Assembly (NCBI GenBank): GCA_029778615.1
Contig: JAKOPZ010000066.1
Coordinates: forward strand, 1 to 39,201
Source: Chloroflexota bacterium
GTDB taxonomy: Bacteria > Chloroflexota > Anaerolineae > UBA4142 > SHND01
DNA: 39,201 nucleotides
Direction: 5' to 3'
Position numbers and translations under genes: made by a program. This document shows, piece after piece, positions 6,037 to 27,072 of this stretch. Position 1 is the stretch's first letter. Each line of letters starts with the position of its first letter. The notes under the pieces were generated by a model. The model searched no databases and was not told the DNA's origin. It saw only the letters and a program-made list of their open reading frames with translations.

Positions 6037-7239
6037 CTAGCCTGCCTCGCCTTCGCGAGCGACCTCTTCCTCTGCGGCGCTGATGCCGGACAGCTCTTCC
6101 TCTTCTTCTGCTTCATGGAATTCGCGGGCGCGTGCCTTGTTCGGCAAGAGCCCTTCGGGACGAAAGAGCATCATCAATATCAACGTTGCGCCAAAGAGAC
6201 CATAACGCAAATTGTTAATGGTAAAACCAAGTTGGATATTGTTCTGCGCCATGACGCCGTCCAGTGTGGGCAGAACAATTGTGTCCACGCCGACAATAAC
6301 GAGACCTCCAAGCAGCGCGCCATATGGATTGCCCACCCCCCCCAGAATGACTGCGGAGAGAATAATGATGGATGTGCTGAATTCGAACGTGCTCGGAAAG
6401 ACGCCCTGAATGTAACTGGCATAGTACGCGCCCGCGAACCCTGAAATCATCGCGCCCATCATAAAGGCGAGCAGTTTGACGCGCACTGTATCAATGCCCA
6501 TCGCCGCTGCCGCGTCCTCGTCTTCGCGCATTGCCATCCACGAACGACCCAAGCGCGAATTTTCGAGGCGCATATTGAAAAAGACAAGAAAGACCATGAG
6601 CAAGAGCGCGAGCCAATACCACGGACCCAAATCAATTTTATTGAATGTATAGCCCGTGAATGGAATGGTGGGCAGCGCGATGGGGTTCACACCTTTTTCA
6701 CCGGCGGTAATATCAATACAGTCCCATCCGAGAAACGGAATCGTCACGCAGGTGAGATTTCGAAACAACACCGGCACCACTTCGCCAAAGCCGAGAGTGA
6801 CGATGGCGAGATAATCGCCGCGCAGTGGAATGGTGGGTGAACCGAGCAAGAGTCCGGAGAATGCAGCGATGCCTGCCGCGAGGATGATGCCCACCCAAAA
6901 ATAGTTGAACGGAAATGGGACCGGGTACGGACCCCACGGCGGCGAAGGCGAGGTAAGCAGTGCCATCGCATACGCGCCTATCGCAAAGAACGCGGCATAG
7001 CCAAGGTCGAGGAGTCCCGCGTAGCCGATGACAATGTTGAGTCCCAACGCGAGGAGCGAATAGACGACAATGTTGACAAACGAACCGGTAAAATTCCCAA
7101 CTTGATTGCTGGTGAGCACCAACATCGCGCGGTCAATGAACGGGTAGAGCGCGGCAAAAAGCGCCAGCAGCAAAAGAGGCCAACGCTTGTGCGCAAAGAC
7201 GATAAAATCATTTTGCCCAAAATCGCGACGGACAGCCAT
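6037..7239 (-). CDS. livM: Branched-chain amino acid ABC transporter permease (LivM type)
   Basis: A 400-residue polytopic membrane protein of the LivM family. The conserved core segments GLNIVIGYAGLLDLGYAAFFAIGAY and the later EAA-like loop (SWMAMREDEDAAAAMGI) are present. It forms the translocation channel with LivH for hydrophobic amino acids. The C-terminus carries an acidic tail (about 370-400, EAEEEEE) beyond the last helix. The ATG is preceded by GGGGGA and lies 9 bp after livH. It is the last gene of the livK-livH-livM transcript; no ATPase genes follow, so it must borrow LivG/LivF, most likely the pair at 10170-11748. Confidence 0.93.
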   Translation of the reverse strand: MAVRRDFGQNDFIVFAHKRWPLLLLALFAALYPFIDRAMLVLTSNQVGNFTGSFVNIVVYSLLALGLNIVIGYAGLLDLGYAAFFAIGAYAMALLTSPSPPWGPYPVPFPFNYFWVGIILAAGIAAFSGLLLGSPTIPLRGDYLAIVTLGFGEVVPVLFRNLTCVTIPFLGWDCIDITAGEKGVNPIALPTIPFTGYTFNKIDLGPWYWLALLLMVFLVFFNMRLENSRLGRSWMAMREDEDAAAAMGIDTVRVKLLAFMMGAMISGFAGAYYASYIQGVFPSTFEFSTSIIILSAVILGGVGNPYGALLGGLVIVGVDTIVLPTLDGVMAQNNIQLGFTINNLRYGLFGATLILMMLFRPEGLLPNKARAREFHEAEEEEELSGISAAEEEVAREGEAG

Positions 7240-7248
7240 ATGTTCCCC

Positions 7249-8313
7249 CTATGCCTTTTGCACCACGCTGCTGCCGAGCAGTCCGTTGGGGCGAAAGACG
7301 AGAATCAAAACGAGAATGAGAAACACAACGGCGCGGGTCCATTGTGTCGCGAAATATTGGTCACTCAACGCCGAGATGAGGCCAATTAAAAATCCGCCGA
7401 GCATCGCGCCTGTAATGTTGCCGATTCCGCCCAGCACGGCAGAGGTGAACGCTTTGAGTCCCGCATCGAAACCCATATTCCATTGCGCGTTCTGAAAATA
7501 CAATCCGCCGACGATACTGCCCGCGCCCGCCATCGCGCCGCCGATGATGAAGGTCAACGCAATGATGAAATCCACGTTGATGCCCATGAGACGAGATGCT
7601 TCACGATTCTGTGCAGTGGCGCGCATCGCTTTGCCGAGCGTCGTGCGCGCGACAAACAAACGTAAAATCATCATGAGCGGAAGCGCAAGCCCGATGGCAA
7701 AAACTTGCTTGGCGGTGATGGCGAATGTGGTGTTCAGACCAAACACATCCGTTAACAAATTGATGTTGGGAATCAAATTTGGGAATGGTTTCGGCTGGGC
7801 ACCGCTGCCGCCAAAATAAATGAACGGGTCGCGCGGCAAGCCGCCCCAAATTAGACCGACCTGAAGGAGGACGAACGAAACGCCGATGGCAGCAATCAAC
7901 GGTGCGAGACGCGGCGCGTTACGGAGCGGGCGATAAAACGCGCGCTCGATGCCAGCGTTCAGTATCGCGCAAATGGTGGGCGACAGGACAAAGCAGAACG
8001 CGATGCTGAGCGCAATCACGGCGGGCGGCGATTTTTCACTAATGCCCAAGAGACTCAACATTGTCAGCGCGGAAAATGCGCCAATCATGTACACATCACC
8101 ATGCGCGAAATTGATGAGCTCGACGATGCCATAAACCATCGTATAGCCCAACGCAATCAAAGCATACACCGCGCCTTGTGACAATCCGTTAATCACCTGC
8201 TTGATAAAAAGTTCCGGATCGGTGAGAAAGGCATTGACCAAAAACGCGGCGAACGCGAGAACGACCAATCCCATCAGAATATTGCGTGGGGTGAATTTGA
8301 AGCGAGAAGACAT
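7249..8313 (-). CDS. livH: Branched-chain amino acid ABC transporter permease (LivH type)
   Basis: A LivH-family inner-membrane permease, 354 residues from the start chosen here. It shows the family core GLSQGAVYALIALGYTMVYG followed by INFAHGDVYMIGA, and the cytoplasmic loop GKAMRATAQNREASRLMGI that contacts the ATPase. A longer frame opens at 8331, but AGGAG sits 5 nt before the ATG at 8313 and nothing comparable precedes 8331. It pairs with livM (6037-7239), whose start is 9 bp downstream. A strong hairpin (8419-8443) lies between this gene and the upstream binding-protein gene. Confidence 0.92.
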   Translation of the reverse strand: MSSRFKFTPRNILMGLVVLAFAAFLVNAFLTDPELFIKQVINGLSQGAVYALIALGYTMVYGIVELINFAHGDVYMIGAFSALTMLSLLGISEKSPPAVIALSIAFCFVLSPTICAILNAGIERAFYRPLRNAPRLAPLIAAIGVSFVLLQVGLIWGGLPRDPFIYFGGSGAQPKPFPNLIPNINLLTDVFGLNTTFAITAKQVFAIGLALPLMMILRLFVARTTLGKAMRATAQNREASRLMGINVDFIIALTFIIGGAMAGAGSIVGGLYFQNAQWNMGFDAGLKAFTSAVLGGIGNITGAMLGGFLIGLISALSDQYFATQWTRAVVFLILVLILVFRPNGLLGSSVVQKA

Positions 8314-8418
8314 GGCGGCTCCTACGGTCATAGGGGCTGAGAGTATGATAACGGATTTGCGAAGCGAGTCGCAATCCTTTTTGATATTCGACTAGCTCGA
8401 CGTTAGGTGGTGAGGAAA

Positions 8419-8456: not shown

Positions 8457-9707
8457 TTACTTTAACGGGCTGATGAACGTCCACTTGCCGTCTTTGACAA
8501 CATTGGCGGACATGGTGGTAAGCGTCGTATCGCCGTTCGCGTCGAACGACCAGGGTGCGCCCAACATGCCGTTGAAATCTTTGGTCGCAAAGACTTCGTC
8601 GCGCATGCACGCGCGCGTTACGGTGCCTTTTGCCGAGCAGCGGTCGAGCGCGGCAAGAATGACGTTCATGGTTTCGTACGAATAGGTCGCGTAAAATTCG
8701 GGGTCGCCGCCGAATTTGGCTTTATAGTCCGAGAGCCATTTTTGTCCGGCGGGACTGGCTTTGGCAACTTCGGCGGGAGGAAGACCACCCGCAGTCGCAA
8801 TCATGCCTTCCGCATCCGACCCGGCTTCTTGAATGACCGAAGTGGTAAAGATGCCGTCAGGTCCGCCGAATTGACCTTTCCAACCGGCGGCGCGGAGGGC
8901 TTTGAGGACGAGACCGGGATGATTGGATTCGATACCGCCAAAATAGACCGACGCGGCACCGGATGACGCAATCTTGGTCGCGAGCGCGCTGTAATCGGTG
9001 GCTTTGATGTCAATGCCTTCGTGTCCTTTGACATCCAAACCAATTTTTTTCGCTTCGGCTTCAAACACATCGGCAACGCCTTTGCCGTACAATTGTTGGT
9101 CGTCCAAAATGTACACGGACGCGAACCCTTGGTCTTTGTACCAACGCGCGCCGACGGCGCCTTGAATATCATCTGCTGGAACGACGCGGGCGTAATTGCG
9201 CACTCCGGTCGGATAGTATTTCTGCGGTTCGCCTTCTTCCGCGCCGTTGGTCTTGGTCAGACCGGGGTATGTGTTCGCGGGGCTAACCATGACGAGCGGA
9301 CCGGCTTGATTCAAAATCGGAATCGAGAGTTTCGCGGCGCCCGAATTGTACGTGCCGAGGTACGCCAGCACTTCGGTATCTGCCACTGCTTTGTTGGCGT
9401 TCGCGGTCTCGACGGCGGGGTCCCACTGACCGAGCGCTGCACTGGCATCATCCCAGTGCAGGTATGTGATTTTGCACTTGCCATCTTTGGTGGTGGCGCC
9501 ATGGTCGCCCAACGCTTGATTGATGGCGTTTACCATCGTATCCGTCTGCGCTTTGGCGCCGCCTTGCTCGGGCAGAGACGAAACAATTTTGACGTTGCAC
9601 GCCGTCGCGCCCGGAACGGCGCCGCCACAAGCTGCAATAACAACGGAAACGGCAATGATGAGAATTGAGAGTACGAGAAACTTGCGCGCAAATAGCTTGC
9701 GATTCAT
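8457..9707 (-). CDS. livK: Branched-chain amino acid-type ABC substrate-binding lipoprotein
   Basis: 416 residues. A lipoprotein signal ends in IAAC (Cys27). The rest is a periplasmic-binding-protein type I fold (Peripla_BP_6) of the LivJ/LivK family: it starts VKIVSSLPEQGGAKAQTD, has the hinge-type motif LGTYNSGAAKLSIPILNQAG near 125-145, and a C-terminal lobe ending in WSFDANGD. It captures the amino acid or a related ligand outside the membrane and delivers it to LivH/LivM encoded downstream. The ATG has an AGGAGGAG site 9 nt upstream. It is the first large gene of its operon, with a consensus promoter about 350 bp upstream. The ligand cannot be told from the sequence. Confidence 0.92.
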   Translation of the reverse strand: MNRKLFARKFLVLSILIIAVSVVIAACGGAVPGATACNVKIVSSLPEQGGAKAQTDTMVNAINQALGDHGATTKDGKCKITYLHWDDASAALGQWDPAVETANANKAVADTEVLAYLGTYNSGAAKLSIPILNQAGPLVMVSPANTYPGLTKTNGAEEGEPQKYYPTGVRNYARVVPADDIQGAVGARWYKDQGFASVYILDDQQLYGKGVADVFEAEAKKIGLDVKGHEGIDIKATDYSALATKIASSGAASVYFGGIESNHPGLVLKALRAAGWKGQFGGPDGIFTTSVIQEAGSDAEGMIATAGGLPPAEVAKASPAGQKWLSDYKAKFGGDPEFYATYSYETMNVILAALDRCSAKGTVTRACMRDEVFATKDFNGMLGAPWSFDANGDTTLTTMSANVVKDGKWTFISPLK

Positions 9708-10169: not shown

Positions 10170-10883
10170 TTATGCCTCGCCGAGATACGCTTTGCGGACT
10201 TCTTCGTTTTCTGCCAATTCTTTTGCGTTGCCTTGCAGGATGATGCGCCCCGTCTCCAACACATAGCCGCGATTCGCCACCGAAAGCGCGCGTGCGGCAT
10301 TTTGTTCAACCAGCAGAATGGTAGTTCCTTCGTCGTTCAATGCTTTGATAATGTCAAAGATGGTGTCCACGAGTACGGGCGCGAGCCCCATCGAAGGTTC
10401 GTCGAGCAGGAGAATGCGCGGGCGCGTCATTAGCGCGCGCCCCATCGCGAGCATTTGCTGTTCTCCACCGGATAATGTTCCGCCCGCTTGATTGCGGCGT
10501 TCGGCAAGACGCGGAAACAAATGAAACACATGCTCCAAATCTTTTTTCACGCCGTCGGCATCCTTGCGCGAATAGGCGCCCATTTCTAGATTTTCCATTA
10601 CCGTCAAGCGCGTAAAAATCTGGCGTCCTTCCGGCGATTGTCCAATGCCTTTGCTCACAATCAGATGCGCGGGCAAGCCGCTGATTTTTTCGCCATTGAG
10701 TTCGACACTCCCCTGTTTCGGATGGAGCAGTCCCGAAATGGTTTTGAGCGTGGTCGTTTTGCCTGCGCCATTCGAACCGATGAGGGTAACTACTTCGCCC
10801 TTTTCGACCGTGAGCGAAATCCCTTTCAGTGCATGAATGTGCCCGTAATAGGTGTGAATGTCATTGACGGCTAAGAGTGGCAT
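10170..10883 (-). CDS. livF: Branched-chain amino acid ABC transporter ATPase (LivF type)
   Basis: A 237-residue ABC ATPase of the LivF family. Walker A is GSNGAGKTT (33-41), the signature is LSGGEQQMLAMGRAL, and Walker B is ILLLDEPSMGLAP. The GLAP motif after Walker B and the short C-terminus (ending EEVRKAYLGEA) are typical of LivF. It powers import with LivG and the LivH/LivM permeases. Two LivH/LivM pairs but only one LivF are encoded in the window, so it likely serves both. A short inverted repeat lies between it and livG, and no strong ribosome-binding site precedes the ATG. Confidence 0.95.
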   Translation of the reverse strand: MPLLAVNDIHTYYGHIHALKGISLTVEKGEVVTLIGSNGAGKTTTLKTISGLLHPKQGSVELNGEKISGLPAHLIVSKGIGQSPEGRQIFTRLTVMENLEMGAYSRKDADGVKKDLEHVFHLFPRLAERRNQAGGTLSGGEQQMLAMGRALMTRPRILLLDEPSMGLAPVLVDTIFDIIKALNDEGTTILLVEQNAARALSVANRGYVLETGRIILQGNAKELAENEEVRKAYLGEA

Positions 10884-10971: not shown

Positions 10972-11748
10972 TTAGATGTGCATTTCCGACGAGCCCAGAT
11001 ACGCTTCGCGCACGCGCGGATTTTGTTGGACTTGCTGGGGTGAACCTTCGGCAATCTTGACGCCGAAATCCAAAACGGTCACGCGTTCCGAAATCGTCAT
11101 CACAACGCGCATGTGATGTTCAATCAACAAAATCGTGACGTTCATTTCCTGCCGCACCTTGCGAATGAAATCCACCATCGCCAACGATTCTTGCGGATTC
11201 ATGCCTGCTGTCGGTTCGTCGAGGAGCAGCAATTTGGGTTCGGTGCCGAGCGCCCGAGCAATTTCCAAACGACGCTGTTCGCCGTACGAAAGATTTTTCG
11301 CCAAATTGTTTTCTTTGCCGCGCAGACCGACAAAGCGCAAGAGTTCACGTCCGTGCGTCGTCACGCGCGCTTCTTCTTCGCGGGTTGCCTTGTTATGTGT
11401 AATCGCGCCGATGACGCCCGCTTTCATGCGGGGATGCTGTCCCACCATCACATTCTCCAGCGCGGTCATGTTGCCAAAGAGACGGATGTTTTGAAAAGTG
11501 CGCGCAATGCCCAGCGACGTAATTTGGTGCATCTTCATGCCCACCGTCGGCTTGCCCTGAAATTGAATCAGCCCTTCTTCCGGAGTGTAATAGCCGGTGA
11601 TGCAATTGAAAAAGGTTGTTTTGCCCGCGCCGTTTGGACCGATGAGACTTACAATCGAGCCCTCTTCGATTTCAAAATCCACGCTGTCCACGGCGGTCAA
11701 GCCGCCAAAGCGTTTGGTCACACCTTTTGCGCTGAGGATAGTTGCCAT
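10972..11748 (-). CDS. livG: Branched-chain amino acid ABC transporter ATPase (LivG type)
   Basis: An ABC ATPase of the LivG family, 258 residues from the ATG at 11748. Walker A is GPNGAGKTTFFN, the signature LSYGEQRRLEIARAL and Walker B LLLLDEPTAGMNP, with the long insertion after the Q-loop typical of LivG (GMTALENVMVGQHP-like region). The frame extends 7 codons to a GTG at 11769, but those codons lie inside a heptad repeat, so I prefer the ATG. Neither start has a good ribosome-binding site. LivG and LivF form the ATPase heterodimer of the hydrophobic amino acid transporters encoded on both sides. Confidence 0.94.
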   Translation of the reverse strand: MATILSAKGVTKRFGGLTAVDSVDFEIEEGSIVSLIGPNGAGKTTFFNCITGYYTPEEGLIQFQGKPTVGMKMHQITSLGIARTFQNIRLFGNMTALENVMVGQHPRMKAGVIGAITHNKATREEEARVTTHGRELLRFVGLRGKENNLAKNLSYGEQRRLEIARALGTEPKLLLLDEPTAGMNPQESLAMVDFIRKVRQEMNVTILLIEHHMRVVMTISERVTVLDFGVKIAEGSPQQVQQNPRVREAYLGSSEMHI

Positions 11749-11753
11749 GAGTT

Positions 11754-11825
11754 GGGTATCAGGTATCACGTATCAAGTATCGGGTATTCCATGCGACCCT
11801 ACTACTTGCTACCTGCTACATGCTC
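11754..11825. repeat. Heptad-periodic inverted repeat, copy 1
   Basis: Period-7 units of the type GTATCAG, GTATCAC, GTATCAA run toward the centre, and their degenerate complements (CTACTTG, CTACCTG, CTACATG) follow after a short loop. It fills the spacer between glnQ and livG and touches the start region of livG. Confidence 0.75.
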
Positions 11826-12563
11826 CTAATGCAGAATCTTGCTCAAGAATTGTCTCATGCGTTCGTTATCTGGGTTGTCAAACATATCGCGCGGGGGACC
11901 TTCGGCGACGATTTGTCCTGCCTCCATAAACACCACGCGTGACGCCGCGTTTCGCGCGAATCCCATTTCGTGCGAGACGACGAGCATGGTCATTCCTTCG
12001 TTCGCCAAATCAAGCATGACATCCAGCACTTCGTTAATCATTTCCGGGTCGAGCGCGCTGGTCGGTTCATCAAATAACATTACTTTGGGATTCATCGCGA
12101 GCGCGCGGGCAATGGCAACGCGCTGTTGTTGTCCGCCCGAAAGTTGTGCGGGATAGCTGTTGGCTTTTTCCGGAATCCGGACTTTGCGTAAAAGGTCATG
12201 GGCAATTTCTTGGCTTGCCTTTTTATCGCGTTTGCGGACTTGGGTCTGGGCGAGCGTCAGATTTTCAAGAACCGTCAAGTGCGGAAATAAATTAAACTGC
12301 TGAAAGACCATGCCCACTTCGGCGCGCACTGCGTTGATGTTGCGATGTTTGGAATCAATCACGTTTCCATCCACCACCACGCGTCCGCCGTCAATAGTCT
12401 CCAGTCCGTTGATGGAACGCAAGAGCGTAGATTTGCCGCAACCGCTCGGTCCGATGACGACCAACACTTCGCCTTTGTTCACGTGTGTGGAAACACCGCG
12501 CAGTGCGTGCACGCTGCCAAAATGTTTGTGAACCTCTTCGATGCGTACGATGGCGTTGTTCAT
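11826..12563 (-). CDS. glnQ: Polar amino acid ABC transporter ATPase (GlnQ type)
   Basis: A 245-residue ABC ATPase of the polar-amino-acid (PAAT) family. Walker A is GPSGCGKSTLLR, the signature LSGGQQQRVAIARAL, and Walker B VMLFDEPTSALDPE, followed by VVSHEMGFAR, which is diagnostic for GlnQ/ArtP/HisP-type ATPases. I start at the ATG 12563, which overlaps the permease stop as ATGA and has GGTGGA upstream; an ATG four codons earlier would overlap more. It energises the permease encoded just upstream and sits in the same transcript as LivG/LivF. Confidence 0.94.
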   Translation of the reverse strand: MNNAIVRIEEVHKHFGSVHALRGVSTHVNKGEVLVVIGPSGCGKSTLLRSINGLETIDGGRVVVDGNVIDSKHRNINAVRAEVGMVFQQFNLFPHLTVLENLTLAQTQVRKRDKKASQEIAHDLLRKVRIPEKANSYPAQLSGGQQQRVAIARALAMNPKVMLFDEPTSALDPEMINEVLDVMLDLANEGMTMLVVSHEMGFARNAASRVVFMEAGQIVAEGPPRDMFDNPDNERMRQFLSKILH

Positions 12564-13435
12564 AATTGTTTCCACCGTGTCTCGATCCAGCGCGTAAAGC
12601 CGGACAAGATGAGCGTGAGCGACAAATACAGAAACGCGAGCGAGCTGTAGGTTTCGATATAGCGAAAGGACGCCGCCGCATACAAGCGCGCTTCTTGTGT
12701 CATGTCGCGCACGCCGAGCGCGGAAACGAGCGACGAATCTTTGAGCATCGCAATCAAATCGTTGCCGAGCGGCGGCAGCACGCGCCGAATCGCTTGTGGC
12801 AGAATTACAAAGCGCATCGCTTGGGTGTACGTCATGCCAAGCGAGCGCGCCGCTTCCATTTGTCCTTTGCCGATAGATTCAATTCCCGCACGAAAGGTTT
12901 CCGCTTCAAAGCCGCCATAAGCAAACGCCAACGCCAAGATGCAGCGCGACGCAAAATCAATGTCGCGCGATTGCAGATTCATCAAAAAGTTGCCGCCGCC
13001 GAGCACCGGACTGAGCCACGCACCCAATCCGTTCACAGGCACAATCGCGAGCGGCACGATGACGAATGCCCAATACAACAATTGAACCAAAATCGGAACG
13101 CCGCGAATAATTTGAACGTAAAACGTGGCAAGATTAAAGATGATTGGATTTTTGGAGACGCGCCCCAAGCCCGCGAACAAGCCAATCAAGATTGCGAGTG
13201 CATACGAAACGACTGCAACAAAGAGGGTGGTGCTGATGCCATTGATGATGCGCGTGAGCGCCGTGACGTATGTTTCGTTGGTGCTGAATTGATAAACTAA
13301 AAAGACGCCGAGCAAGAGAACAATGATGAGCCAAAAGGGGAGTGCGGCAATTTGGTCTACGGCGCGAGCTTGTGCAGTGCGCGGCGTTTCCGATGGCAGG
13401 ATGTTTGCGGATTGGGGACCGCTCGGTGATTGCAT
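12560..13435 (-). CDS. Polar amino acid ABC transporter permease (GlnP/HisM family)
   Basis: A 291-residue inner-membrane permease of the His/Glu/Gln/Arg family. It has an N-terminal hydrophobic segment (34-52), the 3-TMR-type domain, and the EAA loop (ARSLGMTYTQAMRFVILPQAIRRVLPPLGND compressed to the family's G...I.LPxA pattern) that docks onto the ATPase. Only one such permease is present, so it probably works as a homodimer. The residues 125-145 insertion (PVNGLGAWLSPVLGGG) makes the first loop somewhat long. It follows the giant binding protein after a strong hairpin, and glnQ is coupled to its stop. Confidence 0.92.
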   Translation of the reverse strand: MQSPSGPQSANILPSETPRTAQARAVDQIAALPFWLIIVLLLGVFLVYQFSTNETYVTALTRIINGISTTLFVAVVSYALAILIGLFAGLGRVSKNPIIFNLATFYVQIIRGVPILVQLLYWAFVIVPLAIVPVNGLGAWLSPVLGGGNFLMNLQSRDIDFASRCILALAFAYGGFEAETFRAGIESIGKGQMEAARSLGMTYTQAMRFVILPQAIRRVLPPLGNDLIAMLKDSSLVSALGVRDMTQEARLYAAASFRYIETYSSLAFLYLSLTLILSGFTRWIETRWKQL

Positions 13436-13497: not shown

Positions 13498-16400
13498 TTA
13501 TTGTTTTGGTGGATAGACCTGTACCCACTCGGTGCCTTTGACTTGATTGATGACGACGTTCGTGGATTCGGGCGGGCGGTCGCCATTGGCATCGAACGAG
13601 ATTGCGCCGGTTACGCCGTCAATCTTGACCGCGCGCACGGCGTCTGCCAATGCCTTGCGTCCGATGTGCAGATTGCCGTCCGCATCCACTTTGGCGGATG
13701 CTTTCAACGCTTCGACAAGCACGTTAACCGCGTCGTAGGTCTGCGGGCTAAAGACGATGTTTTCTTTTTTACCGCCTTTTGCCTCGTACGCAGTCACAAA
13801 GTCTTGGTACGAAGTGCCCTGCTGCGCGGAACCAAACGACGCGTATTGTCCCTGTGCGGCATCGCCGGCAGTTTCAATGAACTTGGGCGAGTACGTGCCA
13901 TCCGAGCTCACAAACACGGCCTTGTCCAAACCGACTTCGTTCTTTTGTACGACGAGCACTGCCGCTTCGGGCCAAAAGCCACCGAAATAAATTACATCCG
14001 GTTGATTCGCCGCGACTTTGGTCAGCGTCGAGCGAAAATCTTTTTCGCCGACGGTGACGGCTTCCATGTCGCCGACGACGGTGCCGCCAGCCGCTTTGAA
14101 TGCGTCGGCGAACGCTTGCGCCAAACCTTCACCATACGGCGAACCGTCGTGAATGACGGCGGCTTTGGTGAGTTTCAATTCTTTTGCCACATAGTTTGCC
14201 ACCGCCGGACCCTGAATCGCATCATTGAACGCGGTGCGGAAAACGGTTTGCAGACCGCGTGCGGTGACCTGGACTGCGGTCGCAGATGGCGAAATGGAAA
14301 CGATGTGTGCCTTGTCCAGAATTTCTGTGCCGGGGATTTCGCCGGAAGAGCACATGAAACCAATGTGACCGACAATTGCGGTATTGGCGACAATCTTGTT
14401 GCCGATAGTGGTGCCGCCGGGACCGGAGCATTGGTCATCTTCGGAAACGATTTCGAGTTTAAAGCCGCTGATGTCAGTTCCGAATTTGTCGGCTGCCATC
14501 TGCGCCCCGAGCTGCATGTCCTGACCGAACGAGGCAAGGTCGCCCGTCAAAGCCGCGCTGAACGATGCTTTGATGGTGTCGCCTTTTTTCACAACTACTT
14601 CGCCCCATTCGTCGGGACCGCTGCTGCTGCTTGACGATTTGGGCGGGTAGACCTGCACCCACTCGGTGCCTTTGACTTGATTGATGACAACGTTCGTGGA
14701 TTCGGGCGGGCGGTCACCGGTGGCATCGAACGAGATTGCGCCGGTCACACCGTCAATCTTGGTCGCGCGAATCGCATCCACCAATGCTTTGCGTCCGACG
14801 ACGAGGTTGCCATCCGCATCCACTTTGGACGCGGCTTTGAGCGCTTGCACCAATACATTGACCGCATCGTAGGTCTGCGGACTAAAGACGATGTTTTCCT
14901 TTTTGCCGCCTTTTGCCTCGTATGCTTTTACATAGTCGTCGTACCCCGAACCTTGTTGCGACGAACCGAACGAAGCATACACACCTTGTCCGGCATCACC
15001 GGCAGTTTCGATGAACTTGGGCGTGTAGGTGCCGTCCGCGCTCATGAACACGGCTTTGTCGAGACCGACTTCGTTCTTTTGCACGACGAGCACTGCCGCT
15101 TCGGGCCAGAACCCGCCAAAGAAAATAATGTCGGGTTGGTTCGCCGCGACTTTGGTCAAGGTCGCGCGAAAATCTTTTTCGCCGACAGTGACGGCTTCCA
15201 TATCGCCGACCACTTGTCCGCCGCCGGCTTTGAACGCGTCGGCGAACGCCTGCGCCAAACCTTCGCCATACGGCGAACCGTCGTGAATGACGGCGGCTTT
15301 TTTCAGCCCCAATTCTTTGAGCACAAAATTCGCGTCGGCGGGTCCTTGAATCTTGTCATTGAACGCGGTGCGGAACACGGTTTGCAAACCGCGCGCCGTG
15401 ACCTGTACTGCGGTTGCCGAAGGCGAAATGCTGGCGATATGCGCCTTGTCCAGAATTTCGGTGCCGGGGATTTCGCCGGAAGAGCACATAAAGCTGATGG
15501 CGGCGACGATTTGCGGGTCCGCCGCAATTTTGTTTGCAACTGTAGTGCCGCCGGGACCGGAGCATTGGTCATCTTCGGAAACGATTTCGATAGCAAAGCC
15601 ATTCACATCGCCGCCGAATTTCTCGGCTGCCATTTGGGCGCCCTGCTGCATGTCGAGACCGTACACCGCAAGGTCGCCGGTCAAAGCCGCGCTAAACGCA
15701 ACTTTGATTTTGTCGCCTTTTTTGATGGTCACGTCGCCCCATTCATCCGCCGCGCCGGCTGTTGGCGTTTGCGCGTACGAAGGCGATTGCGTTTGGTCGT
15801 AATCAACTTGTTGTCCCGCAAACCATTTGTTGGCGAGCGCCTGCAATGTGCCATCGGCGCGCATGGCGGCGAGGGCGGCGTTGACGGGTTTCACCAAATC
15901 GGAACCTTTGGGGAAAACAAAGCCGAGTTGTTGACCGACGAGTTTGCCGTCGAGCAATTTGATTTTGTCGGCGTTGACGCCAACATAACCGACACCTGCT
16001 GTATCGTCAATCACGACGCCGTCTACATCTTTGCTAATGAGCGCTTGCACCGCGTCACCGAATGAATCGAACGCGACAACGCGATTTTCGCCGACGAGCT
16101 TGATGGCTTCATCGTAATTGGTCGTGCCTTTTTGCGTACCGAGTTTCGCGCTCGTGCTGGCTTTGATGTCGTCAATGGACTTGAAACGTTCATCATCTTT
16201 GCCCACCATGATGCGTTGGTCTACCGAAATATAGCCGTCGGAAAAATCAACTGTCTTGGCGCGTTCGTCGGTGATGGTGATACCGTCGGCTGCCATGTCG
16301 AATTGTCCTTGCGACACGGCAGTAATCATGCTGTCCCACGCGATTTCTTTGAACTCGGGTTTGCAATTCAAACGTTTGCAAATTTCCGCGAGCGCGTCGT

Positions 16401-16710
16401 AATCCCAACCTTCCGCTTTGCCGTTATCGAGGCGGATATAGTTAAAGGGGATGTACGCGTTTTCGACCGCGACGGAAATCGTCTTACCGCCGAGGTCGGG
16501 CAGAGTGGCGGCAGGCGCAGTCGGCTGCGCCGCTGTTGGCTGCGCGGGCACCGCGGTGGGTTGTGCGGGAACGGCTGTGGGTTGTGGTGCCGTCGTCGGC
16601 GCGGGGGGGGGTGTTGCGGGCGTACCGCAGGCGCTGATGACGAGCATCAACGTCAAAAGCAGTGCGCCAAAAACAATGGTGCGTTTGGTTGAAACTGACG
16701 TACGTTTCAT
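13498..16710 (-). CDS. Chimeric triple-domain ABC substrate-binding lipoprotein (PAAT domain plus two LivJ/K domains)
   Basis: 1070 residues, far longer than a normal binding protein (250-420). Order: lipoprotein signal with ISAC (Cys28); PTAVPAQ-type linker (29-68); a family-3 (SBP_bac_3, GlnH-like) domain about 69-305, with [30 protein letters not shown] and a C-terminal ANKWF; linker; a LivJ/K-type (Peripla_BP_6) domain 322-691; a Ser6 linker; a second LivJ/K-type domain 700-1069. The two LivJ/K domains are tandem duplicates (offset 378 residues) sharing long identical runs, including [12 protein letters not shown] and [17 protein letters not shown], so each has a Cys pair. A strong GGAGGAG site precedes the ATG. 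Neighbours encode permeases and ATPases of both transporter families, suggesting one tethered receptor feeds both channels; this is inference. Confidence 0.93.
13504..15747 (-). repeat. Tandem 1.1-kb duplication inside the triple binding-protein gene
   Basis: Units 13504-14613 and 14638-15747 encode the two LivJ/K-type domains. The offset is 1134 bp, and nucleotide similarity is high throughout, including at third codon positions. This indicates a recent in-frame duplication or ongoing gene conversion. Confidence 0.85.
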
Positions 16711-16906: not shown

Positions 16907-18442
16907 TCAACTCGATTCAAGCACTTCCAATTCCGGGTCGCGTTCGCGAAATTCGCGCCGCTGCCGCGCGGCGGGAATCAGTCCGGCGGGGCGCACCAAC
17001 ATCATTACCACCAACAATGCCGCGTATGCCAACAAACGATAATCCGCAATCGGACGTAAAACTTCGGGCAGTCCAATCAATACAATGGAACCAATGATGA
17101 CACCGGGAATGGAACCCAAGCCGCCAATGATAATGAGCGCGAGCGCGTTAATCGAAACGAGCAGCGTAAAATCATCGGGGAAAATATGCTGCTGTCGGGA
17201 CGCGTAAATCGCGCCGCCGAGTCCCGCAAAAAACGCGCCGGAGCCGAACGCCAACAATTTGATGCGCGTGGTATCCACACCCATCGCTTCCGCCGCGTCT
17301 TCGTCTTCGCGCATCGCCGTCCACGAGCGTCCCAAGCGCGAATTGTTCAAACGCAGCGCGATGAATGCGACGACAATGCACGTAAAAAAAATCAAATACC
17401 AAAACGGCGTAGACGAATTGAACGCGACGGTATAGTTGACGAACGGAATGGTGAACGTCGGCGGCGCCACATTCAAAATGCCTTGCGGTCCCCCGGTCAG
17501 CGGATTGAATTTGTAAATGATGCGAATAATTTCGCCAAAGCCGAGTGTCACAATCGCCAAGTAATCGCCGCGCAGACGGAGGACCGGAATGCCGAGCAGC
17601 GTGCCCGCAATCGCGGCTGCGACCATTGCCACCGGCAGCGCGAGCCAAAAGCCCCATTGAAACGGATACGCGGGCGAAGTGAGGACCGCGATGGTGTAGG
17701 CGCCAATCGCGTAAAATCCGACATATCCCAAATCGAGCAGCCCCGCAAAACCAATCACAATATTCAAACCCAAACCCAAGAGCACAAAGAGACCAATCGA
17801 GCCAAGCACCTGATTCCAGTACACGCCGATGAACTGCGGCGCGATGACGAGAAAAAGCGCGGCGAGCGCGAGCAAAATCGTTTGAACCCGATTCGCCGTG
17901 AGACCGCTGCGTTGCGTGCTTGCCGCGAGCGATTGGGCAACGGCGAGCGCGCGCCATCCGCGCAAGAGCGCCGCGCCGAGCGCGCCAAATGCGGCGAACA
18001 CAACAATCCACAGCGCGCCGCCGAGCAGCGCGGGTTGTTCGAACAAAAGTGCCGCGACAGTTTCCGCTTTAACTTTTTCAAACACAAACGACACGTCGAG
18101 TTTGTTGGCGTACAACGCGCTCGCGAAAATCAAAGCGATGGCGACCATCGCGCCCGCAATCGCGTTGGCAATCACCGCGCTGCTGATTTGTGCGGCGAAC
18201 GTTTGCGCGCGGCGCGCCGCAAGCATTCCCGCAATCAACGCGGCGAAAACGGTGAACACGCGACTGAATTGTGGATTCGTCGCGGTGGGCAGCTGCGCGG
18301 CGATTTCGCTCGCCGTCGCGCCTTGAATCGTCAACCATACTCCGCTCAACGTCAACGCTTCGAATGTGGTATAGATGCCGATGAGAATGAAAAAGAGGAG
18401 CAGCGTTCCCGTTACGAGACCGCTTCGGATGGCGGGTGTCAT
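16907..18442 (-). CDS. LivM-type amino acid ABC permease with long N-terminal extension
   Basis: 511 residues. The C-terminal part from about 190 is a full LivM-family permease (GLNIVIGFAGLLDLGYVGFYAI region; EAA-like SWTAMREDEDAAEAMGV, almost the same as in the livM at 6037). The first ~185 residues are extra: hydrophobic segments at about 8-38, 65-78, 85-112 and 138-165 separated by polar loops. That is roughly 100-190 residues more than usual LivM proteins. The ATG overlaps the upstream permease stop (ATGA). It forms the channel with that LivH-type partner and probably uses LivG/LivF further along the cluster. The function of the extension is unknown. Confidence 0.9.
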   Translation of the reverse strand: MTPAIRSGLVTGTLLLFFILIGIYTTFEALTLSGVWLTIQGATASEIAAQLPTATNPQFSRVFTVFAALIAGMLAARRAQTFAAQISSAVIANAIAGAMVAIALIFASALYANKLDVSFVFEKVKAETVAALLFEQPALLGGALWIVVFAAFGALGAALLRGWRALAVAQSLAASTQRSGLTANRVQTILLALAALFLVIAPQFIGVYWNQVLGSIGLFVLLGLGLNIVIGFAGLLDLGYVGFYAIGAYTIAVLTSPAYPFQWGFWLALPVAMVAAAIAGTLLGIPVLRLRGDYLAIVTLGFGEIIRIIYKFNPLTGGPQGILNVAPPTFTIPFVNYTVAFNSSTPFWYLIFFTCIVVAFIALRLNNSRLGRSWTAMREDEDAAEAMGVDTTRIKLLAFGSGAFFAGLGGAIYASRQQHIFPDDFTLLVSINALALIIIGGLGSIPGVIIGSIVLIGLPEVLRPIADYRLLAYAALLVVMMLVRPAGLIPAARQRREFRERDPELEVLESS

Positions 18443-19542
18443 GCTTTTTCGGTCCCCAACTGTGAACTCAAAATTCCCTGTGGACGGAAAATCAAAACGA
18501 GCACGAGGAGTGTAAACGCAATCACATCTTTGTATTGTGATGGAATATCGAGCAGAGACGGACCCAATGCTTCGGCGAGTCCGAGAATAAATCCGCCGAG
18601 CATCGCGCCGGGAATATTTCCAACGCCGCCGAGAACGGCAGCGGTGAATGCTTTGATACCGGGGAAAAAGCCCATCGTGGAATTGATTTGGCTGTTGTGA
18701 AAACCGAGCATCACGCCCGCCGCGCCTGCGAGCACCGAGCCAATCGCAAAGGTGATGACGATGATGCGGTCAACGCTGACGCCCATCAATGCGGCGGCTT
18801 CTTTGTTTGTGGCGACAGCGCGCATTGCCTGTCCCGTGCGCGTTTTTTGCACGAGCCAGTACAGCGCGCCCATCAAAACAATCGAAGCGAGAATAACAAA
18901 CGCGCCTGTTTTAGGCATGGGGATGCCGCCGGGAAAAATAATCGCGCCCGCTAAAAATTCGGGCTTGGTATAAACGCGAATCGGCGCGCCAAAAATCAAA
19001 CGCGCGGCTTCTTCCAAAAACACCGACGCGCCAATCGCAGTGATGAGGGGAACGAGGCGCGGCGCCGCGCGCAGCGGACGATACGCGACGCGTTCCAATA
19101 CGACGCCCGTAATCATCGAAACGAGCATGCCGACGGCAAGCACGAGCGCGAGCGTGAGGTATTGATTTGTTTTGGCAAAACCTGTGGCATCCAAACCGGC
19201 AAGCACAAAAAAGCCCGCGTACGCGCCGACCATCATCACATCGCCGTGCGCGAAATTAATCATGAACAGAATGCCGTATACGAGCGTATAGCCGAGCGCA
19301 ATGAGCGCATACACGCCGCCCAGCGTCAAGCCGTTGCCAATTTGCAGTCCCCAATAGTTCAACGGGAGGAGTTTGTTTGCTTGCCACAAATTGTATTGGA
19401 CGAGCAAGACGCGCACCAAAAGCGCGAAAATAAATATCAAAGCAACAACGGCGATCCAATTTACGCGGGTGTACCAAGGGCGCAAACGGAGAGAGGAAAG
19501 AGCAAGGGGAGAATTCGATTCGCTTTGGGTTACCGATGCCAC
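18439..19542 (-). CDS. LivH-type amino acid ABC permease
   Basis: A LivH-family permease of 367 residues from the GTG at 19542. Core motifs: GLTLGGVYALIALGYTLVYG, then INFAHGDVMMVGAYAG, and the loop GQAMRAVATNKEAAALMGV. The frame continues to an ATG at 19725, but a consensus promoter (19607-19635) lies inside that stretch, so a start there could not be transcribed from it. GGAG sits 5 nt before the GTG. Before the core there is an extra N-terminal segment with one hydrophobic helix (about 33-50). It is the first gene of the hybrid amino acid transporter cluster and is coupled to the LivM-type gene by ATGA. Confidence 0.9.
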   Translation of the reverse strand: MASVTQSESNSPLALSSLRLRPWYTRVNWIAVVALIFIFALLVRVLLVQYNLWQANKLLPLNYWGLQIGNGLTLGGVYALIALGYTLVYGILFMINFAHGDVMMVGAYAGFFVLAGLDATGFAKTNQYLTLALVLAVGMLVSMITGVVLERVAYRPLRAAPRLVPLITAIGASVFLEEAARLIFGAPIRVYTKPEFLAGAIIFPGGIPMPKTGAFVILASIVLMGALYWLVQKTRTGQAMRAVATNKEAAALMGVSVDRIIVITFAIGSVLAGAAGVMLGFHNSQINSTMGFFPGIKAFTAAVLGGVGNIPGAMLGGFILGLAEALGPSLLDIPSQYKDVIAFTLLVLVLIFRPQGILSSQLGTEKA

Positions 19543-19606
19543 AACAGCTCCTGACCGGCGGGATGTTTTCGGTTGCGCGCGGCGCAATGGACGCGCGAAT
19601 GCGCGG

Positions 19607-19635
19607 AGTGTACCAAAAAAGCGGAGTGCTGTCAA
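19607..19635 (-). promoter_or_regulatory. Promoter of the hybrid amino acid transporter operon
   Basis: Minus-strand -35 TTGACA (19630-19635), a 17-bp spacer and -10 TACACT (19607-19612), predicting a start near 19600 and a leader of about 58 nt to the GTG. It also settles the start choice for the livH-type gene. Confidence 0.75.
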
Positions 19636-19669
19636 AGGGTTTTTTTGAAAATGTTTGCCAGAGGAAAAA

Positions 19670-20260
19670 TCATGTTTCGAGAGCGTCCGCTTCGCCGAGG
19701 AGCGCCGCGCGCATACGCTGTGCAAGATACGCGCCGTCGCGCGGCGGCAGGACGCGCGGCAATTCTTGCGCGGAAATGTTCACTACGGCAAAGAGGGTAT
19801 CGTCGAGCGCATGAATGTCGCGGCGGAGGTCTGCCAAATCGTTCGCGTCGAAAATGCTGCGCGCGTGGACGATGCCGCAGCCGCGTGCCACTGCCACGAG
19901 GTCGGTACCGAACGCGGTGTGTGTGCGCTGGTGTCCTGTTTCGCCAAACTGTTGATTGTCCATGACGACGAGACGTAAATTGCGCGGACGCTGCACGGCG
20001 ATAGTCGCCAAACTTCCGATGCCCATCAACATTTCGCCGTCGCCCGTGATGACTAACACGCGACGTTGGGGCTGCGCGAGCGCGATTCCCAACCCCACCA
20101 TTGCCGCGCCGCCCATCGCACCCCACATTGGAAAATCGAGATTCTCATTTCCGATAGAGGCAAGGTCATACGCGGGGGAGCCCAAACCTGCGACGACAAT
20201 CAAGTCATTTCGTTCGCGCAAAATTTCTGCGAGCGCGGCGCGGCGCGATAGCCCATTCAT
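19670..20260 (-). CDS. TPP-dependent decarboxylase, TPP-binding subunit (ComE/sulfopyruvate decarboxylase beta-like)
   Basis: 196 residues forming a lone C-terminal TPP-binding domain. The TPP/Mg motif starts at GDGEMLMGIGSL and ends at VVMDNQQFGETG, and the early G-L-G-S and MWGAMGGAAMVGLGIALA segments match the beta subunit of sulfopyruvate decarboxylase or the C-terminal half of phosphonopyruvate decarboxylase. Such enzymes decarboxylate a 3-carbon sulfonate or phosphonate keto acid to an aldehyde. The ATG overlaps the alpha-subunit stop (ATGA). No coenzyme M or phosphonate genes are nearby, so the true substrate is open; another 2-keto acid is possible. Confidence 0.85.
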   Translation of the reverse strand: MNGLSRRAALAEILRERNDLIVVAGLGSPAYDLASIGNENLDFPMWGAMGGAAMVGLGIALAQPQRRVLVITGDGEMLMGIGSLATIAVQRPRNLRLVVMDNQQFGETGHQRTHTAFGTDLVAVARGCGIVHARSIFDANDLADLRRDIHALDDTLFAVVNISAQELPRVLPPRDGAYLAQRMRAALLGEADALET

Positions 20261-20796
20261 TGGTCGCCTCGAACAAAATTTTTCGCGCCAATCAATTTTT
20301 GCGCGAGGAGCACCGCGACGCGCTGGCGCGACGCAAACGCGAATTCAATCGCCGCGTCAACCGTCGGCACAACGTCCTGCGGCGTTTGCACGCGATAGGT
20401 TATGACACCGCTCGCTTCCAAAACAACTTGCGTGCCGGAACCCATTGGCACTTGCCAGGGATTGAATTCGCCCCATTCACCGCGCATGGTCACGAGCAGC
20501 AGCAGCGGCATGTTGCACACGCGCGGCAAAGAAAGCATGTTGACGCAATTGCCGACTCCGCTCGACTGCATGAGTACTGCCGCGCGTGTGCCGCCGAGAA
20601 ACGCGCCCGCTGCAAGGGCGATGCCTTCTTGTTCGGTCGTCAGCGTAACGGTGTGAATTGCCGCGTCGCGTTCGCACAATTCGAGCAAACGTTTCATGCC
20701 GCCATCGGGAACGAATGAAACAATGTTGATGCGATGCGCGCGAAACAATGCATGCACGCCGTCTGACCAATGCGTGTTGGGGAGGGAATCACTCAT
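20257..20796 (-). CDS. TPP-dependent decarboxylase, pyrimidine-binding subunit (ComD/sulfopyruvate decarboxylase alpha-like)
   Basis: 179 residues from the ATG at 20796, matching the N-terminal (PYR) domain of TPP enzymes of the sulfopyruvate decarboxylase alpha type. The conserved glutamate that activates TPP is in TTEQEGIALAAGA, and the domain core reads AAVLMQSSGVGNCVNMLSL. The last third covers VTMRGEWGEFNPWQ and QTPQDVVPTVDAAIEFA, also typical. A frame start at 20826 (TTG) would sit in the tRNA terminator, so I use the ATG. It is split from the TPP-binding subunit downstream, which is coupled by ATGA. No clear promoter is visible; read-through from the tRNA gene is possible. Confidence 0.84.
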   Translation of the reverse strand: MSDSLPNTHWSDGVHALFRAHRINIVSFVPDGGMKRLLELCERDAAIHTVTLTTEQEGIALAAGAFLGGTRAAVLMQSSGVGNCVNMLSLPRVCNMPLLLLVTMRGEWGEFNPWQVPMGSGTQVVLEASGVITYRVQTPQDVVPTVDAAIEFAFASRQRVAVLLAQKLIGAKNFVRGDQ

Positions 20797-20811
20797 CTTT
20801 ACACGATAATG

Positions 20812-20835
20812 AAAAACCAGCCGCAAGGGGCTGGT
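20812..20835 (-). terminator. Terminator after tRNA-Gly
   Basis: Stem ACCAGCC (20816-20822) with GGCTGGT (20829-20835), a 6-nt loop, and on the minus strand a TTTTTC tail. It lies 4 bp past the 3' end of the tRNA gene. Confidence 0.75.
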
Positions 20836-21759: not shown

Positions 21760-22692
21760 TTACGAATTCACTTCGGAACCGGAGGCGGGCTTGTTTGTCG
21801 TCGGTGTTGGAGTCGGGCGGCGCGTGGGTGTTTTGCCGCGCGGTGCGCTTTGCGCGCCTGTGTGCCGATACAAGAACCAAATGCTGCAAATGACGAACGC
21901 GGTAATGGAAATGATTTGCGCGACCGGAACGCCTGCGAACGTCCACGCGTCGGGGCGTTGCATTTCGGTAAAGAAACGTACGAGTGGATAAAAGATGCCG
22001 TAAAGCAAAACCATGTCGCCCGGTTTCAACGTCTTGTCCCACCGCCGCGCGATATAGAGCATGAGTCCTGTGACAATAAACATTCCAAGTGATTCATACA
22101 AAAAGGTCGGATGAAAGCGCGCCGTTTCCGGCAGCTGCGCGAATTGCGGCAAGCGATGTGCCGAGTCAATCGGAATGCCCCACGGTAAATCGGTTGGATA
22201 GCCGTACAATTCTTGATTGAAAAAATTACCCCAACGTCCAATGGCTTGTCCGAGCGGCAGCGCGGTCATGCCAATATCGGCGAGCGTCCAAAATTTTACC
22301 TTGGCAAAACGCGCATACACCCAAATGCCGAGTGCGCCCCCAACGGCGGCGCCAAAAATTCCCAGTCCCCCACTGCGCGGATTCAACACGTTGACGAGGT
22401 TGGTCAGAAAATCTTTGGAGAAATAGCCGAGCGGGTCGCCCTGTGCCCAATCGGAGAGGACATGATACAAACGGGCGCCGACGACGCCGAACAAAAGCGC
22501 AAACAACAAGGCATTCCAAATGTGGTCGGGGTCAATGCCTTTGCGCTTGGCTTCGGCAGAGGCGAGAAATGCGCCGGCAATTGCGCCGATGACAATGATG
22601 ATGCCGTACCAATAAATGGGCAGAGATGTTTGCCCAAAAAGCGAAAAGGGAAGGGGAATGGTAAAAGCGACCGGGTTTGGCGTAAAATTCAT
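21760..22692 (-). CDS. lgt: Prolipoprotein diacylglyceryl transferase
   Basis: 310 residues from the ATG at 22692. This is the integral membrane enzyme that moves diacylglycerol from phosphatidylglycerol onto the lipobox cysteine of prelipoproteins. The signature GRWGNFFNQELYG (Arg153) is intact, as are the N-terminal IYWYGIIIVIGAIAGA helix and the later LYESLGMF segment. The last ~35 residues after the final helix are Pro/Thr-rich and variable. I prefer 22692 over 22728 because GAGGA lies right before it. The window encodes several lipoproteins that would be its substrates. A TATAAT box lies about 63 bp upstream. Confidence 0.95.
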   Translation of the reverse strand: MNFTPNPVAFTIPLPFSLFGQTSLPIYWYGIIIVIGAIAGAFLASAEAKRKGIDPDHIWNALLFALLFGVVGARLYHVLSDWAQGDPLGYFSKDFLTNLVNVLNPRSGGLGIFGAAVGGALGIWVYARFAKVKFWTLADIGMTALPLGQAIGRWGNFFNQELYGYPTDLPWGIPIDSAHRLPQFAQLPETARFHPTFLYESLGMFIVTGLMLYIARRWDKTLKPGDMVLLYGIFYPLVRFFTEMQRPDAWTFAGVPVAQIISITAFVICSIWFLYRHTGAQSAPRGKTPTRRPTPTPTTNKPASGSEVNS

Positions 22693-22754
22693 AACATCCT
22701 CATTCCAGATTGCGTTGGCGCGAGCCACGCGGATTAAAGAAATTTGCGGCGCAA

Positions 22755-25479: not shown

Positions 25480-27072
25480 ATGAAAAAATATATGACCCTT
25501 GCGATCATCGTTGCCGCTCTGGCACTGATCGTCGCCGGTTGTGGCGCACCGGCTGCACCCACCGCCGTACCCGCGCAACCAACCGCAGTACCGGCACAAC
25601 CGACCGCTGTCCCCGCGCAGCCCACCGCCGCGCCGGCAGCAACTCAGGCGCCCGCGCCCACTGAAGCCCCCAAGCCGACTGAGGCGCCACCACCAACCGA
25701 AGCGCCTACAGCTGCTTCGACCGAACCGACAGCGGTTCCAACCCCAACCATCCCGCCGCCGGTCCTCACGACGACGGAAGGTTGCGCACCGAATTCAACA
25801 CCCATCGTTTGGTTTATCGGCTTGGGTGCCGGTTCGCAGCCGAATGATGTTGTAAAAGAAAAAGCATGGGCGGACAAATACAACAAGTCCCAAACCGAAG
25901 CGTGTGTCATCTTGAATGTTGTCTATAACACCGGTAACAACTCGTACGATGCACTGCGCGCAATGATTGCCGGCGGCAATGCCCCCGACATTGTGGGTCC
26001 CGTTGGCAAAGCGGGTCGGGCTAGTTTTCAAGGTTCGTGGGCAGATATTGAACCGCTCGCCAAAGCCGCAGGTTTCGACCTGAGCAAGTACGACCCCAAA
26101 TTGCTCGACTTTACCAAAGATGAAGGCGTCCTCGTCGGTATCCCGTTCGCGTTGTTCCCGTCGTTCATCTATTACAACAAAGCATTGTTCGACGAAGCGA
26201 AATTGCCTTATCCGCCACACAAAGTTGGCGAGAAATATGACGGCAAAGATTGGAACATTGACACCTTTACCGAACTCGCGCAAAAGTTGACGGTGGACGG
26301 CAAAGGAAACGATGCCACGTCGCCCGATTTCGATCCCAAAGACATCAAGCAGTTTGGTTTCTATGAACAGTGGACCGACACACGCGGCATTGGCACATTC
26401 TTTGGCGGCGGCTTGCCGTACGACCCAAAGAATCCCAAGAACGCGGTGATTCCGGACAACTGGAAGGCAGCGTTCAAATGGTACTATGACGGTGTTTGGA
26501 ACAAACACTTTATGCCGAACTCGGATTACGCGAACAGTGACCAATTCGGCAAGGGCAACGTGTTCAGCAGCGGCAATCTTGCCATGTCGTGGGTTCACAC
26601 GTGGTACACCTGCTGTTTCGACCTGAGCAAGACGAGCTGGGACATTGCGGTCATGCCGACAGTAAACGGCGTCACCACTGCCAAACTGCACGGTGATACG
26701 TTCGCGATTTTGAAAGACAGCAAGCACAAAGATCTCGCGTTCAAGGTCTTGAGCGCAATGGTCGTGGACAAAGACCTGTATCAAATCTATGGCGGTATGC
26801 CTGCCCAAGTCGCCGACCGCCCCGCGTTCTGGGCAGCGTTAGACGAACGCGCCGCGCCGAACAAAGTGGACTGGACTGTCGCGGAAGAAATGCTCAAGTA
26901 TCCGGACCTCCCGAATCACGAAGCATGGATGCCCGATTATGCCAAGTCCAAAGACATCATGGACAAATGGCGCGTGTTCATTGACCAGACCCCCGGTCTT
27001 GACATGGACCAAGAAATCGCGAAACTGCAAGCAGAGCTCGATGCAGTCTTCAAGGCAGCACCGGAGCAATAA
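25480..27072 (+). CDS. Carbohydrate ABC transporter substrate-binding lipoprotein
   Basis: 530 residues. The signal ends in VAGC (Cys21). A long Pro/Thr/Ala linker (PTAVPAQ repeats then PTEAP repeats, about 22-98) keeps the binding domain away from the membrane. From about 105 the protein has the SBP_bac_1/8 (MalE/UgpB-like) fold, with VYNTGNNSYDALRAMIAGGNAPDIV near 145-170, then FPSFIYYNKALFDEAKLPYPP and a C-terminal TPGLDMDQEIAKLQAELDAVF. GGGAGGAG precedes the ATG. Two permeases follow. No ATPase gene is present, as is common for such sugar importers that share an MsmK-type ATPase. Confidence 0.94.
   Translation: MKKYMTLAIIVAALALIVAGCGAPAAPTAVPAQPTAVPAQPTAVPAQPTAAPAATQAPAPTEAPKPTEAPPPTEAPTAASTEPTAVPTPTIPPPVLTTTEGCAPNSTPIVWFIGLGAGSQPNDVVKEKAWADKYNKSQTEACVILNVVYNTGNNSYDALRAMIAGGNAPDIVGPVGKAGRASFQGSWADIEPLAKAAGFDLSKYDPKLLDFTKDEGVLVGIPFALFPSFIYYNKALFDEAKLPYPPHKVGEKYDGKDWNIDTFTELAQKLTVDGKGNDATSPDFDPKDIKQFGFYEQWTDTRGIGTFFGGGLPYDPKNPKNAVIPDNWKAAFKWYYDGVWNKHFMPNSDYANSDQFGKGNVFSSGNLAMSWVHTWYTCCFDLSKTSWDIAVMPTVNGVTTAKLHGDTFAILKDSKHKDLAFKVLSAMVVDKDLYQIYGGMPAQVADRPAFWAALDERAAPNKVDWTVAEEMLKYPDLPNHEAWMPDYAKSKDIMDKWRVFIDQTPGLDMDQEIAKLQAELDAVFKAAPEQ

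Follow-up and report, generated by a model that had tools for sequence, protein, structure and literature searches.

The window, the whole stretch of 39,201 nucleotides analyzed here, contains a gene in which one GlnH-type and two LivJ-type substrate-binding domains are joined on a single lipoprotein, and this gene is surrounded by complete sets of translocator genes of both the PAAT type (GlnP and GlnQ) and the HAAT type (LivH, LivM, LivG, and LivF). In textbook ABC importers, each receptor belongs to one translocator family. The gene product is fairly likely to be a concatenated substrate-binding lipoprotein with independent domains, of which the GlnH-type domain would feed GlnPQ and the LivJ-type domains would feed LivHMGF.

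The receptor frame begins with an ATG at position 16710 and ends with a stop codon at 13498, with no internal stop codons. The original prediction had given these coordinates exactly and had named no strand, which is the minus strand; its 1070-residue frame with one lipobox, one SBP_bac_3 (SBP3) domain, and two Peripla_BP_6 (BP6) domains was confirmed by direct reading and by Pfam. The gene and its parts are as follows:

13498..16710, minus strand, fused receptor gene, SBP3-BP6-BP6 lipoprotein of 1070 amino acids (frame and Pfam)
16627..16710, minus strand, signal peptide and lipobox (VISA-C28), residues 1-28 (direct sequence reading)
16486..16626, minus strand, Pro/Thr/Ala/Gln-rich spacer from the lipid anchor to the first domain, residues 29-75
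15817..16485, minus strand, SBP_bac_3 (GlnH-type) domain, residues 76-298 (Pfam; AncQR, GlnH, and ArtJ matches; residue table)
15748..15816, minus strand, linker 1, residues 299-321 (alignment A1)
14641..15747, minus strand, Peripla_BP_6 (LivJ-type) unit a, residues 322-690 (Pfam, unit alignment, residue table)
14614..14640, minus strand, Ser-rich linker 2 (KSSSSSSGP), residues 691-699
13501..14613, minus strand, Peripla_BP_6 (LivJ-type) unit b, residues 700-1070 (Pfam, unit alignment, residue table)

The single lipobox (VISAC, with Cys28), read directly from the sequence, is that of a bacterial lipoprotein. PF00497 (SBP_bac_3) matched residues 78-298 (2.7e-39; 134.4 bits against a gathering score of 26.4), and PF13458 (Peripla_BP_6) matched two stretches, residues 334-670 and about 734-1047 (4.7e-91 for the whole protein; 306.4 bits). 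All three domain matches far exceed the curated cutoffs, and the PAAT and HAAT receptor families are thus joined in one chain, as had been claimed from the letters of the sequence. The best NCBIfam matches were a high-affinity branched-chain receptor model for residues 332-666 and lysine/arginine/ornithine and glutamine receptor models for the N-terminal domain, all of them below the curated cutoffs and therefore implying no exact substrate. Sequence comparison with the PDB identified LivJ and LBP as the closest solved structures for the BP6 units and AncQR, GlnH, and ArtJ for SBP3. An AlphaFold model of the full chain, built from a shallow alignment of only nine sequences, had a pLDDT of 46.

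The gene order around the receptor is livH-livM-receptor-glnP-glnQ-livG-livF, all on the minus strand, and a second LivJ-type system lies downstream:

18439..19725, minus strand, livH-type permease (HAAT), with the true start probably within the open reading frame (profiles)
16907..18442, minus strand, livM-type permease (HAAT), overlapping livH by 4 bases (profiles)
12560..13435, minus strand, glnP-type permease (PAAT) with the EAA loop motif EAARSLG (profiles, motif check)
11826..12575, minus strand, glnQ-type ATPase (PAAT) with intact Walker A, signature, and Walker B motifs (profiles, motif check)
10972..11769, minus strand, livG-type ATPase (HAAT) with intact motifs (profiles, motif check)
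10170..10883, minus strand, livF-type ATPase (HAAT) with intact motifs (profiles, motif check)
8457-9707, minus strand, second LivJ-type receptor (livJ2), after a 462-base gap following livF
7249-8331 and 6037-7239, minus strand, LivH- and LivM-type permeases (livH2 and livM2), without ATPases of their own

The gaps from livH to livF are, in order, -4, 196, 62, -16, 56, and 88 bases, and from direction and spacing the seven codirectional genes are predicted to form one operon. In a promoter and terminator scan, terminator-like sites were not above chance, and 11 promoter-like sites were found versus 6.0 expected. No receptor gene other than the chimera was found in the livH-livF interval, and the next best stand-alone relatives of its domains in the same genome are remote (23 to 31% identity). 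The original prediction, which lacked this locus context, had proposed that one receptor may serve two channels or gather two classes of amino acids. The flanking of the gene by both translocators lends strong contextual support to the service of two channels, in which each domain type would dock on its own channel and may bind its own amino acid class.

It is quite unlikely, in our estimate, that only one translocator (e.g., LivHMGF) uses the chimera, with the other domain being passive, scavenging, or regulatory and the second translocator being served elsewhere. SBPs can act as sensors for other systems, and one BP6-SBP3 fusion in the class (G147, locus L099) has glnP alone beside it. The 14 kb examined there yielded no Liv genes, which shows that not every such fusion has both translocators nearby. 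Against such single use, the window locus has both translocators with intact motifs, both domain types keep their contact residues under purifying selection, and the genome holds no close stand-alone GlnH or LivJ among the search matches. The livJ2-livH2-livM2 genes, which are also conserved downstream of the operon in relatives of the same genus where the contig reaches, may share LivG and LivF, and this possible sharing makes a strict one-to-one pairing of receptor and translocator less certain.

Several neighboring genes were also noted. The gene for the lipoprotein-lipidating enzyme, lgt (positions 21760-22728, minus strand), lies about 2 kb upstream of the operon, and in each of the four congeneric loci long enough to include it the distance is 1 to 2 kb. 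Directly upstream of livH, two genes (19670-20826, minus strand) match a TPP enzyme that we read as sulfopyruvate/phosphonopyruvate decarboxylase-like, one over its C-terminal half and the other over its N-terminal half; these ComD/ComE-like halves were considered as a hint to the substrate and rejected, since they are missing upstream of the operon in loci L032 to L035. At positions 25480-27072 (plus strand), a 530-amino-acid probable lipoprotein without a Pfam match is encoded, followed by genes for two BPD_transp_1 permeases and by glycoside hydrolase genes; its similarity to receptors for maltose and galactooligosaccharides is very weak, and it is possibly a divergent sugar-binding protein.

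The two LivJ-type units of the chimera share 84.6% protein identity and 81.3% DNA identity. They differ at 207 of the 1107 aligned bases, 131 of these being at third codon positions (dN, 0.10; dS, 0.75; dN/dS, 0.14), a divergence which indicates that the duplication is old and real rather than an assembly error. For each domain compared, dN/dS was 0.05 to 0.18, and all comparisons gave purifying selection; by this measure, both LivJ unit copies are preserved by selection. The pocket residues of units a and b are identical except for Tyr/Phe at LIVBP position 18, and relative to LIVBP both units carry Asp for Glu226 and Phe for Tyr202. Cys78, Ser79, Thr102, Tyr150, and an acid at position 226 (LIVBP numbering) are retained in BP6 of every fused copy examined; we take Ser79, Thr102, Tyr150, and the acid at 226 to be amino acid contacts in BP6 pockets. 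Similarly, the Thr, Arg, and Asp of GlnH-type pockets, presumably contacts to the alpha-amino acid, are retained in SBP3 of every fused copy examined, and the residue table shows the Glu, Thr, Arg, and Asp contact positions to be retained in SBP3 of the window. The second LivJ unit thus probably adds capacity rather than a new ligand class.

The host group consists of little-studied soil and groundwater bacteria. A LivJ/GlnH fusion adjoins glnP-glnQ-livG-livF in five further congeneric species from separate assemblies, so that all six species found in the genus carry one, and the upstream livH-livM pair was seen in five of the six; in the sixth (G003), the contig ends upstream of the fusion, before the livH-livM position. 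Counting SBP3-BP6-BP6 of the window, the genus has four architectures, the others being SBP3-BP6 (G005, locus L033), BP6-SBP3 (G001, L034; G002, L035; and, with BP6 cut, G003, L081), and BP6-BP6-SBP3 (G004, L032). Linker 1 of the window protein is homologous to the SBP3 C-terminal tail of the BP6-SBP3 relatives (alignment A1), and the C-terminal tail of the L034 protein, ISSDDIGPGAYGPTPTP, aligned with the interdomain linker of the SBP3-BP6 proteins, which indicates that whole modules were moved between architectures. The SBP3 domains of G003 and G004 form a type distinct from the SBP3 of the window, since stand-alone genes branch between the two in the tree, and by our reading of the trees the SBP3 module changed once within the genus. 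Between the two BP6 copies of L032, 8 of 1119 positions are changed, and all 8 lie at the edges; the two copies of L068 have 6 differences in 1056 positions. Such near-identical copies imply that duplication is recurrent.

Locus L068 belongs to a distant family and encodes SBP3-BP6-BP6, the domain order of the window protein; it is followed there by livH-livM-livG-livF-glnP-glnQ, an order unlike that of the window. In L070, another locus of the same family, SBP3-BP6 precedes livHMGF, which extends to the end of the contig. L069 (G201) encodes BP6-SBP3-SBP3 with glnP-glnQ; both loci end at contig borders, and one complete translocator set is visible in each. In the BP6 tree, the units of the window genus cluster together, with G131 and G149 far away, G201 groups with G011 and G119, and G147 groups with a BP6-SBP_bac_5 protein of G110. 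Both the BP6 and the SBP3 domains of the other fused families branch apart from those of the window genus. By our reading of these trees, LivJ and GlnH domains were fused independently at least four times in the class. Such repeated joining argues that the fusion is real and probably useful.

The distribution also bears on whether separate genes were fused artificially during assembly or binning. The genomes with LivJ/GlnH fusions are all fragmented assemblies, and the named ones are metagenome assembled. A collapsed or duplicated contig, however, would not yield units that are 81% identical in DNA with a third-position bias, and frames joining the domains occur in separate assemblies of six species of the genus and of three other families. 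An artifact is therefore extremely improbable; artificial joining was rejected on the basis of unit divergence, dN/dS, and recurrence in other species and is excluded in practice, and the single frame on which the original prediction depended stands.

Concatemers joining LivJ, GlnH, or SBP_bac_5 (oligopeptide) binding domains were counted by hand in at least 33 of the 199 class genomes sampled, from the match table together with the examined loci (about 25 from the table alone), and this is a lower bound because three candidates were scored per genome. In the sister class, 3 of 150 genomes had a concatemer, all of them BP6 repeats (hand count from the table alone, with the same E value). The class also has SBP3 repeats, BP6 repeats, BP6-SBP_bac_5 fusions, and SBP3-SBP_bac_5 fusions. 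No LivJ/GlnH fusion was found outside the class in a phylum sample of 200 at the threshold used. In the plasmid collection, the best match and one of the four near-full-length matches proved to have the LivJ-type and GlnH-type receptors in separate genes (Phyllobacterium and Rhizobium etli). Locus L078 has unfused linked genes in the same order (glnH-glnP, livG-livF, and livJ-livH-livM), and the stretch between glnP and livG yielded no glnQ. Since genes are named by one domain, annotation hides concatemers in many genomes of the class.

Other proteins of these loci included the following: lipoproteins with BP6 and SBP_bac_5 domains at L080:6673-9552 (confirmed by Pfam) and L071:5902-13275 and in L093, L094, L097, and L098; proteins joining SBP_bac_3 and SBP_bac_5 in L090, L092, and L109 (by Pfam for L090 and L109), of which that at L109:1894-4503 also scores for a LysM domain (residues 51-108) that may anchor it to the cell wall; a triple Peripla_BP_6 lipoprotein (L072:27-3782); a triple SBP_bac_3 lipoprotein (L075:2308-4767); and LivM and LivG apparently in one open frame, a permease-ATPase fusion (L095:3743-6160, in G031).

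This breadth could also mean that the fusion is near neutral, having arisen through the loss of stop codons separating adjacent receptor genes and through tandem duplication and being tolerated because SBPs act as independent beads, with a shared signal peptide as its only benefit. Concatenation is widespread in the class and includes same-family repeats and SBP_bac_5 fusions, architecture differs among congeneric species, and the repeats in L032 and L068 are recent and nearly identical. Nevertheless, we consider near neutrality unlikely: independent fusions repeat and persist, the LivJ/GlnH fusion being present in six of the six species found in the genus, and concatemers are concentrated in this class (hand counts of at least 33 among 199 genomes versus 3 among 150 in the sister class), which together suggest some advantage.

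In the preferred reading, that of a concatenated receptor with independent domains, a single lipid anchor at the N terminus, followed by a long and flexible spacer, would hold three Venus-flytrap domains at the cell surface. The GlnH-type domain would close on a polar amino acid and dock on a homodimer of GlnP powered by GlnQ, and each LivJ-type domain would close on an amino acid and dock on LivHM driven by LivGF. The tether could fix the stoichiometry, place several sites on each anchor, and keep the local concentration high near both channels, and the variable domain order and copy number point to flexible beads on a string rather than to a rigid machine. It is possible, if doubtful, that the chain goes further and physically couples the PAAT importer GlnPQ with the HAAT importer LivHMGF by docking on both, tying the uptake of two amino acid classes together in stoichiometry or space, with SBP3-BP6-BP6 having arisen convergently in at least two lineages. 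One chain common to two families, repeated and in varied order, offers natural test pieces for tethering, stoichiometry, and docking.

By profile, the domains and translocator genes of the window are ordinary members of the LivJ/LivK-LivHMGF (HAAT) and GlnH-GlnPQ (PAAT) systems; receptors of such importers are normally encoded by separate genes, whereas the window has one gene between the genes of both translocators. A close parallel in organization is GlnPQ of Lactococcus lactis (PMC8025302), which also has tandem substrate-binding domains, flexible linkers, and several sites, and whose domains bind independently, as those of the fused receptor would by analogy. Lengthening the linker of GlnPQ slows transport (PMC8025302), which means that tethering can influence delivery even where the domains do not cooperate. 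Unlike the fused receptor, GlnPQ has two domains (SBD1-SBD2) that are both of the SBP_bac_3 type and are fused to a single permease. The window protein joins two families as a free lipoprotein, with two translocator types encoded alongside; Pfam found no permease profile in its chain, and glnP is a separate gene. OpuA (PMC11065425) likewise has substrate-binding domains tethered covalently at the membrane, but they are of one family, serve one transporter, and are fused to the permease.

The original prediction had further stated that no protein of this kind was described. The open-licence literature yielded permease-fused tandems (GlnPQ and OpuA) but no free lipoprotein in which PAAT and HAAT receptors are joined; the words fused, tandem, and multidomain are absent from a census of the solute-binding proteins of model bacteria (PMC9602780). 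That statement thus held for free-standing lipoproteins and not for the pairing itself, since these two families also share one chain in the ionotropic glutamate receptors of eukaryotes and in plant GLRs (PMC3483616, PMC9739336), the GLRs being annotated with Peripla_BP_6 and SBP_bac_3 (PMC9739336). The BP6-SBP3 order of the sister species is the ATD-LBD order of glutamate receptors, with their LIVBP-like ATD, thought to have been acquired through a separate fusion (PMC3483616), and their GlnBP-like LBD. The bacterial fused receptors differ in lacking channel segments and in having an unsplit SBP3 domain; in the window protein, Pfam found no channel profile and an uninterrupted SBP_bac_3 domain. 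A specific kinship with the eukaryotic receptors was considered and rejected, as the solved structures closest to the domains are those of bacterial LivJ and GlnH types and no glutamate receptor was among the best 60 of 77 PDB sequences at an E value of ≤1e-10. Because the similarity is to bacterial receptors, the likeness to glutamate receptors is probably convergent, and the LivJ-GlnH pairing of their outer part appears to arise readily in bacteria without a channel.
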